Position numbers and translations under genes: made by a program
Notes under the pieces: generated by a model
Databases searched by the model: none
Told to the model about the DNA's origin: nothing
What the model saw: only the letters and a program-made list of their open reading frames with translations
In this document: positions 33,499 through 38,396 of the stretch, piece after piece
Position numbering within the stretch: the first letter of the stretch is position 1
Layout of the letters: each line of letters begins with the position of its first letter
Assembly (NCBI RefSeq): GCF_000730285.1
Contig: NZ_CP007174.1
Span: 868,001-932,000 of the forward strand
Direction: 5' to 3'
DNA length: 64,000 nt
Source of the DNA: Candidatus Nitrososphaera evergladensis SR1
GTDB taxonomy: Archaea; Thermoproteota; Nitrososphaeria; Nitrososphaerales; Nitrososphaeraceae

Positions 33499-35199
33499 TT
33501 AGGCAAGCGCCTTCTCTGCTTGTGCGAGCTTGTCGAGTATGGTAGCTATGTGGGCGTTGATCTGGTCAGCCGGAACCTTGTCGCTTATCTTTTCCCTCAG
33601 CTGGACCCTCATCAACTGCTCAATCTCTTCCATCAGGCCCTTTTGGCCTGCGTCAACGAGCGGGCCCTCGACGTGCTCAAAGTTGTCCAGGTACGCCTCT
33701 ACCGCAAGGCTGTCTGCCTTGGTATAGTTGCCTGCCGCGTACTCTTCTTTCAGCTCGCCAAGCAGTGTCCTTATCTTGGCGATAAACTCTGCAGGCGTGG
33801 TCTCGTGGGCCGTTACTGCCTGGATTCCTGCCCCTTCCTGGATCTCGTGGATGGCTCCCTGCACGAGGGTGTTGATCGCCGCCGGCTCTTGCGCGTTCTT
33901 CATGCTTGTCTTTAGGTTTGCCAGGATCTCCTTTGCTTCTTCTGCCTCGTGAGCCGGAAGCTGGGCCTGGATTGTCCTGAACAGGACGTTTGCCCTGGCG
34001 GCAAACGCCTCTGCGTCCTGGTACTCTACCATCTGGGCAATCTTGCCGCCCTGGATGGCCTCGGCGTACTCTTCCTGCACGGTCGACAGGAGCGTGTTGG
34101 TGACTGCCGCTCTGAACTTAAAGTCCGCCCAAGTGTCTCCGGTGACGACGTCTGCCGTTGCCGTGTTGAGCATCCTTGTTATCTTGACTACCTGCGCCTT
34201 GGTGTCGACCGCTGACATGTTCTTGATGTTGGCCGCAAAGCCTTTCAGGGCAGTCTCCAAGTCGCCGTCAAGGGCCTTGTTGTGCTCGCCAAGCTCTGTC
34301 TTTAGCAGCGCATAGTGTTCTGCTATGGGGTGGCCTGCGTGAGCCGCCGCAAGCTCGTAATTGTTGTTCAAGACGTTCTTGACTGCCTGCGACATGTGGC
34401 CCTTTATCATCTCGACGTTGGCCGCAAAGCCGGCTTTCTCGGAATCGACAGCCGCCCCGCCAAGCTTGAACCCTTCGGTTATCTCGTTGTTGATGCCGCC
34501 TATGACGGTCTCTATCTTTTCAGAGTCTGCGTTTGCAGAACTAAGTGAATGCAGTTCTGCGAACAACTCGGTGGCTTCTTCTGCTTCGTGCTCTGGCATA
34601 CTTGGCTTGATCTTGCCAAATATGACCTCTGCCCTGTGGATGAAGGCGTTAGCGTCCTGGTACTCTACCATCTGCATGATGGTGCCGTTTGCCACGCCTT
34701 CGTTGTATTCCTCGACGGATGTACTGAGAAGGCCCATTGCAACCTGCGCCCACAGCGTGGTGCTGTTGCTGTCATTGCCAACCACCTTGGTCACTGCGCT
34801 GTCCAGGCTGGCGTTGATGTCTGCAACCTTGGCCTCGACATCGGCCGCAGTCATGTTCTTGCCAATCTGTTCAAAGAGCGTGTTCAAGTCGCCTTCAAGC
34901 TTGGTGTCAAGTGCCGCGTCGTCTCCCTGTATATCTGCCTTGATGAGGGTATAGACCTCTGCCACGGGGTGGCCTGCATGAGCTATTGCGAGCGTGTTGT
35001 TGCCTGCTTTCTTGTTCTCTATGGCCTTTTCAAGGTGGCCCCGGATATACTCGATGTTAGTAACGAAATCCACCGGCTTGTCTGTGTGAGCAAATGCCTT
35101 TGTGGTCATGATAGCCGGTCCTGCTATGGTGGCTATTGAACCTGCAAGCATCGCCAGAAGAGCCAGTGGCACAACCTTTCCTACCTTCGCGTATGCCAT
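33499..35199 (-). CDS. Secreted repeat protein ending in an FTR1-like metal-binding helical module
   Basis: About 566 residues. A signal peptide (to about 38, A-F-A-H) is followed by two homologous all-helical units of about 205 residues. Both contain H-A-G-H-P-(V/I)-A-E-x-Y-x-L and M-V-E-Y-Q-D-A-x-A-F ... E-A-E-E-A. The last 100 residues hold E-E-Y-A-A-G-N-Y-T-K-A-D and A-Y-L-D-N-F-E-H-V-E-G-P-L, closely like the extracytoplasmic domain of FTR1 iron permeases, but no permease helices follow. The conserved His and Glu suggest metal binding outside the cell. ATG 35199 has TATA (GGTTTATAAG) 28 nt upstream. Confidence 0.65.
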   Translation of the reverse strand: MAYAKVGKVVPLALLAMLAGSIATIAGPAIMTTKAFAHTDKPVDFVTNIEYIRGHLEKAIENKKAGNNTLAIAHAGHPVAEVYTLIKADIQGDDAALDTKLEGDLNTLFEQIGKNMTAADVEAKVADINASLDSAVTKVVGNDSNSTTLWAQVAMGLLSTSVEEYNEGVANGTIMQMVEYQDANAFIHRAEVIFGKIKPSMPEHEAEEATELFAELHSLSSANADSEKIETVIGGINNEITEGFKLGGAAVDSEKAGFAANVEMIKGHMSQAVKNVLNNNYELAAAHAGHPIAEHYALLKTELGEHNKALDGDLETALKGFAANIKNMSAVDTKAQVVKITRMLNTATADVVTGDTWADFKFRAAVTNTLLSTVQEEYAEAIQGGKIAQMVEYQDAEAFAARANVLFRTIQAQLPAHEAEEAKEILANLKTSMKNAQEPAAINTLVQGAIHEIQEGAGIQAVTAHETTPAEFIAKIRTLLGELKEEYAAGNYTKADSLAVEAYLDNFEHVEGPLVDAGQKGLMEEIEQLMRVQLREKISDKVPADQINAHIATILDKLAQAEKALA

Positions 35200-35208
35200 G
35201 CCGGGCAA

Positions 35209-36510: not shown

Positions 36511-36882
36511 CTAAAAAGCTGCTGACTGCTTGATCACGTTAACCTGCGCCGAGGACAGGTGCACATCATTCTTTTCAAACTGGAGCAGAATCTGGTCACG
36601 GGACAGGTTGAACTCCATCGACTTTATCCTGCTCCTGTAATAGACCACCTTCTTGCCCTTGCCGTCCAGCTCTATCTTTTCGATAAAGAGTATGCCCACG
36701 TCCTGCAACTTCTTTATCTTTTTGTACGTCGAGCTAAGGGGGAGGTTGTTTTCCACGGAAACCTGCGCAGCCGTCTTGGCCGTGTCTATGGTGGACATTA
36801 TCAACCTGTATGAAATACAGTCCACAAGCTCTTGCAAAAGAGGCATTGCAGTAGTATGGCTGTCAAACGTCAGTGCATTCAT
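36511..36882 (-). CDS. Winged-helix transcriptional regulator
   Basis: 123 residues. A helix-turn-helix is visible at about 30-65: T-A-A-Q-V-S-V-E-N-N-L-P-L-S-S-T-Y-K-K-I-K-K-L followed by G-I-L and a beta wing (I-E-L-D-G-K-G-K-K-V-V-Y-Y). The C-terminal third is helical, probably for dimerisation. No Cys/His metal site stands out. ATG 36882 is chosen, with TTG 36888 possible. The promoter carries a tandem palindromic operator, so autoregulation or control by a metal repressor is likely. Confidence 0.75.
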   Translation of the reverse strand: MNALTFDSHTTAMPLLQELVDCISYRLIMSTIDTAKTAAQVSVENNLPLSSTYKKIKKLQDVGILFIEKIELDGKGKKVVYYRSRIKSMEFNLSRDQILLQFEKNDVHLSSAQVNVIKQSAAF

Positions 36883-36888
36883 CGTCAA

Positions 36889-36916
36889 TTAGGACGGCCT
36901 AATTAGGCAAGCCTAA
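36889..36916 (-). promoter_or_regulatory. Tandem TTAGG-N4-CCTAA operator (iron-box-like) at the regulator promoter
   Basis: Two abutting copies of TTAGG-N4-CCTAA occupy 36889-36902 and 36903-36916. In the minus direction they sit between the TATA element (GTTTAAATAC, about 36917-36926) and the start codon, over the expected transcription start. The half-site matches the TTAGG/CCTAA half-sites bound by DtxR/IdeR-family metal repressors. Confidence 0.65.
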
Positions 36917-37117
36917 GTATTTAAACAGTCTTGCGGGGTTCTGTTAACTTGCTGCGGATTGGCGCGATTTCCCATAAAGGAAGATGCACTAACTTTTCAC
37001 GAAGAAAGTCATTCTTGTAACCTCACATTTGCGTCCTTGAACGCTAAAGAATGATACACTACACAATCTTAATTTTGAAGCAAATCTATCTAAAAAAGTG
37101 TGTATCTCAGCCTTGCC

Positions 37118-38042: not shown

Positions 38043-38396
38043 ATGTCAACCAGTAGCAGTACCAGCCTCCAAAATTCAAAATGGCAAAGCTGCATAGATG
38101 CCTGCACGAGTTGCGCCGAGGCGTGCGAGTTCTGCGCCACGTCGGACCTTAAAGAATCGGACGTAAAGATGATGGCTTCTTGTGCGCAGATCAATAGGGA
38201 ATGCGCGGCCATATGCTGGACTTCTGCGTCGCTTATGTCTATGGACAGCCAGTTTGCAAAGCAGTTCTGCGACCTGTGCGCAAGCGTCTGCGATGCGTGT
38301 GCACAAGAGTGTGGCCGGCACAATGTCGACCACTGCAAAATGTGCGCAGAGCAGTGCCGCAGGTGCGCTGTCGAATGCCGGCGCATGATGGGATAA
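38043..38396 (+). CDS. Four-helix-bundle copper-storage protein (Csp / DUF326 type)
   Basis: 117 residues with a dense, regular Cys pattern on helices: C-I-D-A-C-T-S-C-A-E-A-C-E-F-C, later C-A-Q-I-N-R-E-C-A-A-I-C, F-C-D-L-C-A-S-V-C-D-A-C-A-Q-E-C and C-K-M-C-A-E-Q-C-R-R-C-A-V-E-C. This is the Csp/DUF326 bundle that holds many Cu(I) ions through Cys thiolates. There is no signal peptide, so it is cytosolic (Csp3-like). TATA (GTAAATATC) is about 26 nt before the ATG. A copper reserve or detoxifier fits an organism with a copper-dependent ammonia monooxygenase. Confidence 0.88.
   Translation: MSTSSSTSLQNSKWQSCIDACTSCAEACEFCATSDLKESDVKMMASCAQINRECAAICWTSASLMSMDSQFAKQFCDLCASVCDACAQECGRHNVDHCKMCAEQCRRCAVECRRMMG

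Follow-up and report, generated by a model that had tools for sequence, protein, structure and literature searches.

A probable tandem DtxR-type operator before a winged-helix regulator gene, and a predicted iron regulon with a conserved small RNA, in Candidatus Nitrososphaera evergladensis and its relatives

The probable operator site and the winged-helix gene

The window, the 64,000-nucleotide stretch of DNA that was analysed, encodes on its minus strand a 123-aa winged-helix regulator. Between the TATA element of this gene and its start codon lie two TTAGG-N4-CCTAA palindromes, TTAGGACGGCCTAA and TTAGGCAAGCCTAA (Table 1), both perfect and directly abutting, as described in the initial annotation; the span of 36889-36926 reported there comprises the boxes plus TATA, since the TATA element occupies its last nine positions. 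Read on the minus strand, the order is CTGTTTAAATAC-TTAGGCTTGCCTAA-TTAGGCCGTCCTAA-TTGACG-ATG, with a single C ahead of the first TTAGG as the sole base separating TATA and box 1. The ATG at 36882, six bases past the boxes, is the likely start codon; a TTG at 36888 was also considered and is the less likely start. Judging from the distance to TATA, box 2 would cover the expected transcription start. The two boxes are the sole exact matches to the pattern within the window, and palindromes with up to two mismatches showed no excess over chance there (8 found vs 17 expected).

The 14-bp unit is identical to TTAGGNNNNCCTAA, the proposed IdeR/DtxR target consensus that is bound by one IdeR dimer (PMC8464063), which bears out the earlier remark that the half-sites are those of DtxR/IdeR. 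The site thus holds two exact copies of the minimal operator consensus and, as expected of a DtxR/IdeR operator, at iron genes boxes of this kind overlap either the core promoter or the start site. The canonical 19-bp actinobacterial IdeR box TTAGGTTAGSCTAACCTAA, built of overlapping repeats, is not present; the window copies abut at an offset of 14 bp. The tandem is most likely the operator of a predicted iron-type DtxR regulator.

The winged-helix fold of the encoded protein was predicted with a mean AlphaFold pLDDT of 83. Among solved structures, the nearest are Phr, the heat shock regulator of Pyrococcus, and ArsR/SmtB-type repressors, with weak E-values (best 2.4e-3), so that the resemblance to ArsR/Phr-type regulators is generic only. 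No Pfam or NCBIfam family, Fe_dep_repress and Fe_dep_repr_C included, was matched over its cut-off, in agreement with the earlier statement that the regulator is not itself DtxR-like. There is no invariant Cys or His among 15 orthologues, and the protein itself therefore seems unlike a metal sensor. A double box between TATA and ATG was found at all 30 of the orthologues examined; in 14 genomes of genus g5 the boxes are 3 bp apart, giving an offset of 17 instead of 14, and in one genome, G024, both are degenerate.

Metal-related neighbours had been cited as support for metal control. This support is weaker than was stated, since neither the FTR1-like neighbour nor the copper-type ones have a box. 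The secreted FTR1-like protein shares homology with box-controlled FTR1 permeases only over their extracellular part, and has no FTR1 Pfam match and no box in its promoter. The Cys-rich DUF326 protein resembles copper-storage four-helix bundles; its promoter is likewise boxless.

Table 1. Coordinates of the operator, associated genes and related features
Feature	Location	Strand	Basis or context
Winged-helix regulator, 123 aa, ArsR/Phr-like fold, operator target	window 36511..36882	-	ORF, model, orthologues
TATA element GTTTAAATA, winged-helix promoter	window 36918..36926	-	sequence; fixed-distance counterpart in relatives
DtxR-type box 1, TATA-proximal, TTAGGCTTGCCTAA	window 36903..36916	-	pattern match, exact
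DtxR-type box 2, start-proximal, TTAGGCCGTCCTAA	window 36889..36902	-	pattern match, exact
Secreted FTR1-like protein	window 33499-35208	-	
DUF326 protein	window 38043-38396	+	
Window tandem	genome 904889/904903		fronts winged-helix gene
Second tandem	genome 337431/337445		fronts non-coding stretch
Single box	genome 1240774		5' of non-coding stretch preceding SUI1/eIF1-like gene
Single box	genome 1952794		hydantoinase/oxoprolinase gene
Single box	genome 2271109		786-aa FTR1 iron permease (PF03239, Pfam E 4.5e-23)
Single box	genome 2686935		between DtxR-family (Fe_dep_repress) gene and ferritin (PF00210, E 5.9e-20)
Candidate binder, Cys-type DtxR	L009:862-1320		
sRNA1	G000:C1:337459-337552 (L028/L175)		behind second own-genome tandem; homologues L176-L184, L196
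Second non-coding stretch (candidate sRNA2)	L171:2289-2400; L153:2013-2130; L205		
Small-protein pair loci	L155:2264-2694; L169:1989-2437; L154 (minus strand); L043-L046		
Hydantoinase/oxoprolinase and racemase-like loci	L007:1-1494; L157:2789-5001; L177:175-972; L184:609-1406		hydantoinase/oxoprolinase gene is a box target
Tandem-like box in G175	L168:2250-2330		adjoins phosphonate-type ABC transporter operon

Copies elsewhere in the genome

The window belongs to a single contig of 2,954,373 bp, and the whole genome was searched for the pattern. Nine exact TTAGG-N4-CCTAA sites were found vs two for a reversed-pattern control. When one mismatch was permitted the excess disappeared (33 vs 49 in the control), so only near-perfect copies are informative in this genome, and one-mismatch boxes were not counted as evidence in it. 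The nine sites comprise two tandems and five singles, that is, seven places, six of which are in promoters; site 236793, which has no TATA, looks like chance. The promoter search proposed in the initial annotation thus led to metal genes, namely an FTR1 permease, ferritin together with a DtxR gene and, in relatives, ZIP transporters. Two of the box-bearing promoters, as read from the sequence, apparently drive non-coding transcripts. The SUI1/eIF1-like gene was rejected as the target of the box at 1240774, since box and gene are separated by some 95 nt of conserved sequence, candidate sRNA2.

Distribution across the family

Of 70 genomes in the family, 28 have the tandem with at most one mismatch over its 20 fixed positions; the reversed-pattern control gave none. 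In relatives it stands before ZIP permeases (PF02535, E 1.4e-13), winged-helix orthologues, secreted or membrane proteins of the FTR1 type and a predicted small RNA. Spacing to TATA is rigid: of 61 distinct TATA-linked boxes, 35 have the same start, +8 counted from where TTTAAATA begins, and a further 15 start at +22, the position of the second box. Across 400 genomes of the class, the string TTTAAATATTAGGN4CCTAA is limited to this family bar one genome (control 0). That genome, G175, belongs to another family, and its tandem-like box, the sole TATA-abutting match outside the family of the window, adjoins a phosphonate-type ABC transporter operon.

Small proteins near ferritin are also preceded by boxes, in some species by a single one. 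They form pairs of 61-65 aa and 74-86 aa with no known family, located close to ferritin in several species. A box also precedes a hydantoinase/oxoprolinase gene; in genus g5 a racemase-like gene lies between the DtxR and hydantoinase genes, and two further species have a similar gene next to sRNA1. The hydantoinase and racemase-like genes possibly belong to a pathway for a metal-binding compound.

At most targets the box begins at or just past TATA, over the expected start site. Ferritin promoters have a different arrangement: in all four that were seen, of which three have an exact box and the fourth a box with two mismatches, it lies 58-61 nt before the ATG and about 15 bp upstream of TATA.

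A predicted box-controlled small RNA and a second non-coding stretch

The stretch behind the second tandem, here called sRNA1, is conserved in other genera, with a 5' core CTGGC-ATTGGCATCTACCAGC and a strong hairpin as its 3' part. It is present in two genera at least, g1 and g12, and probably in g4 too, and no ORF opens at its expected transcript start. The predicted RNA is about 95 nt long in the window genome and in G042 (G042:C1:1596859-1596949, minus strand). Six sequences, with the operator left out, were used to build a covariance model, which detected 11 strong homologues in the 70 genomes (E <= 9e-6); every one of them is immediately preceded by a TATA-like element and by TTAGG-N4-CCTAA-like boxes, either one or two. 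Five of these homologues had no part in building the model, and their boxes therefore confirm the association independently. Weaker matches to the model are boxless, except one in G004 (L190, E 0.003) that lies behind a tandem already known; weak sense-strand matches in aconitase-like genes, which lack boxes, were discarded.

In the sRNA1 hairpin 96% of cells pair, and changes on both sides were seen in 8 of 9 pairs (slid controls <=2) in the alignment fitted to the structure, or in 5 of 9 in the six-sequence alignment made without structure. The gene after sRNA1 is convergent in G026, G028, G066 and G065, so sRNA1 is not a leader in these genomes. In the window genome and G042 a same-strand ORF lies about 230 nt past the boxes, and there sRNA1 may serve as a leader. 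No Rfam family matched sRNA1 over its gathering score. A target search in 18 genomes with the complement of the conserved core, GTAGATGCCAA, revealed no conserved target at start codons; the matches lie mostly within unrelated genes or antisense to these. In some species sRNA1 also includes AUCACCUCC, a sequence similar to the 16S anti-Shine-Dalgarno end. In G029 (L177, minus strand, within the sRNA1 match 1501-1650) sRNA1 contains an inserted long hairpin flanked by duplicated ACCAGCAAGTNTC.

G000 and G042 have the second conserved non-coding stretch under the box before the SUI1/eIF1-like gene, and G040 has a 74% match to it. In G042 and G040 the stretch has the core TTGGCA in common with sRNA1.

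A candidate binder of the DtxR family

A search for DtxR homologues, as the initial annotation had advised, returned two Cys-type paralogues, at 1.898 Mb and 2.686 Mb, and one MntR-type protein (L010). The candidate binder matches Fe_dep_repress (E 6.5e-13) and Fe_dep_repr_C (E 1.9e-20); by its sequence motif it has the iron-type Cys metal site C-x-x-E-H (EMVCGIEHH), with Pro and Gln in the recognition helix. The recognition helix of the Cys-type proteins reads QPSVVQ or QPSVIQ, which places Pro and Gln at the positions of IdeR Pro39 and Gln43. In IdeR these two residues contact the CCTAA half-site, the Gln contact being dispensable (PMC8464063). The Cys-type proteins (152-160 aa) showed no C-terminal SH3-like domain in the Pfam scan and are of the two-domain type, as is MntR. 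Against the NCBIfam MntR models the Cys-type proteins score far under the cut-offs (e.g. 53-67 bits vs 138 and 350); L010, whose metal motif has Glu and whose recognition helix has Lys instead, is the only protein that passes (145 vs 138).

Cys-type DtxR proteins were found in 56 of the 70 family genomes, in 12 of 12 genera, and in 35 of the 37 genomes of good quality. In most genomes the gene is not adjacent to any box. Thirteen genomes of genus g5 have it immediately following the winged-helix gene, with the double operator ahead of the pair; in G020 and G025 it stops some 100 bp short of the tandem and ZIP gene.

Alternative explanations

Palindromes arising by chance, with no function, would agree with the lack of genome-wide enrichment of mismatch-bearing copies. 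However, the family-wide count of the tandem against the empty controls, the fixed TATA-to-box spacing and the recurrence of boxes at metal-gene promoters reduce the probability of this explanation practically to nil. It is also very unlikely that the winged-helix protein itself binds the tandem and represses its own gene along with the metal regulon. A double box at every orthologue examined would be expected of an autoregulated repressor gene, but four genomes that are 94-97% complete (G016, G021, G025 and G043) keep the tandem before a ZIP gene with no winged-helix orthologue (E<=1e-8), the motif equals an established DtxR/IdeR consensus, and the Cys-type DtxR gene has boxes beside it as well. 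Of the two possible binders named at the outset, the encoded regulator or a DtxR homologue elsewhere, the evidence favours DtxR; the winged-helix protein may, in addition, regulate its own gene on top of this control.

Cys-type DtxR proteins can respond to manganese besides iron. An operator bound by a manganese- or zinc-sensing member of the DtxR family would fit the frequency of ZIP permeases among the targets and the presence of L010 in the genome. This reading is unlikely, given that FTR1, of the ferric permease family, and ferritin are among the targets and that the box-linked DtxR is of the Cys type and not of the Glu type of MntR. We infer that the metal sensed is iron rather than another. 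The site in the window is very probably a double operator for a DtxR-family repressor of the predicted iron type, with a Cys ligand, whose gene lies elsewhere in the genome.

Comparison with known systems

The actinobacterial IdeR/DtxR iron box (TTAGGTTAGSCTAACCTAA; minimal TTAGGNNNNCCTAA) is alike in its half-sites and 4-bp spacer, in having repression boxes over the transcription start, and in a ferritin gene with an upstream box. It differs in that the IdeR box is a 19-bp overlapping arrangement, whereas here two complete 14-bp palindromes stand head to tail at an offset of 14 bp (17 in g5) and at a set distance from an archaeal TATA box, and the predicted transcript is essentially leaderless. 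The archaeal regulators MDR1, SirR/Idr and Thermoplasma IdeR are two-domain DtxR proteins that control metal uptake genes through palindromes near TATA; unlike these regulons, the one described here has a family-wide tandem, a winged-helix target and a box-controlled small RNA. Leyn and Rodionov reportedly surveyed archaeal DtxR-family regulons in 2015, and part of the present regulon may have been described in that survey.

RyhB, controlled by Fur, and MrsI, controlled by IdeR, are iron-sparing small RNAs. sRNA1, here predicted from sequence, would resemble them in being short, transcribed on its own and preceded by a promoter that has an iron-regulator box, but it is archaeal and has no Rfam relation. 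The copper-limitation motif of N. viennensis, TTCSGSMTTTGWACYANT (PMC7785015), is also a promoter motif of metal-responsive genes in the genus, but it is unrelated in sequence and serves a different gene set.

Proposed mechanism and implications

When iron is sufficient, metal-loaded DtxR dimers would sit on both 14-bp palindromes. The occupied boxes, starting beside TATA, would cover the start of the essentially leaderless winged-helix transcript, and TBP, TFB and RNA polymerase would thereby be blocked from initiation. When iron is scarce, DtxR would be released, and the winged-helix regulator, FTR1 permease, ZIP transporters and small RNA would be made together. The position of the box over the start at most targets suggests repression by blocked initiation as the sign of control. 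At ferritin the box upstream of TATA is in an activator position, and DtxR therefore probably activates this gene, in parallel with IdeR, a repressor of uptake and an activator of storage (PMC10317159).

Iron sensing and rationing in soil ammonia-oxidizing archaea have apparently been little described. The present result supplies a concrete predicted regulon with a candidate sensor, predicts for each promoter the sign of control, and places a conserved putative small RNA under the common switch; all of these predictions are directly testable in cultivated N. viennensis. The small RNA under the boxes is the least expected part of the finding and is previously undescribed. On balance, we lean slightly toward a two-layer iron response in terrestrial ammonia-oxidizing archaea, in which DtxR would control uptake and storage and derepress both a conserved small RNA, an independently evolved archaeal counterpart of RyhB, and a second-tier winged-helix regulator.
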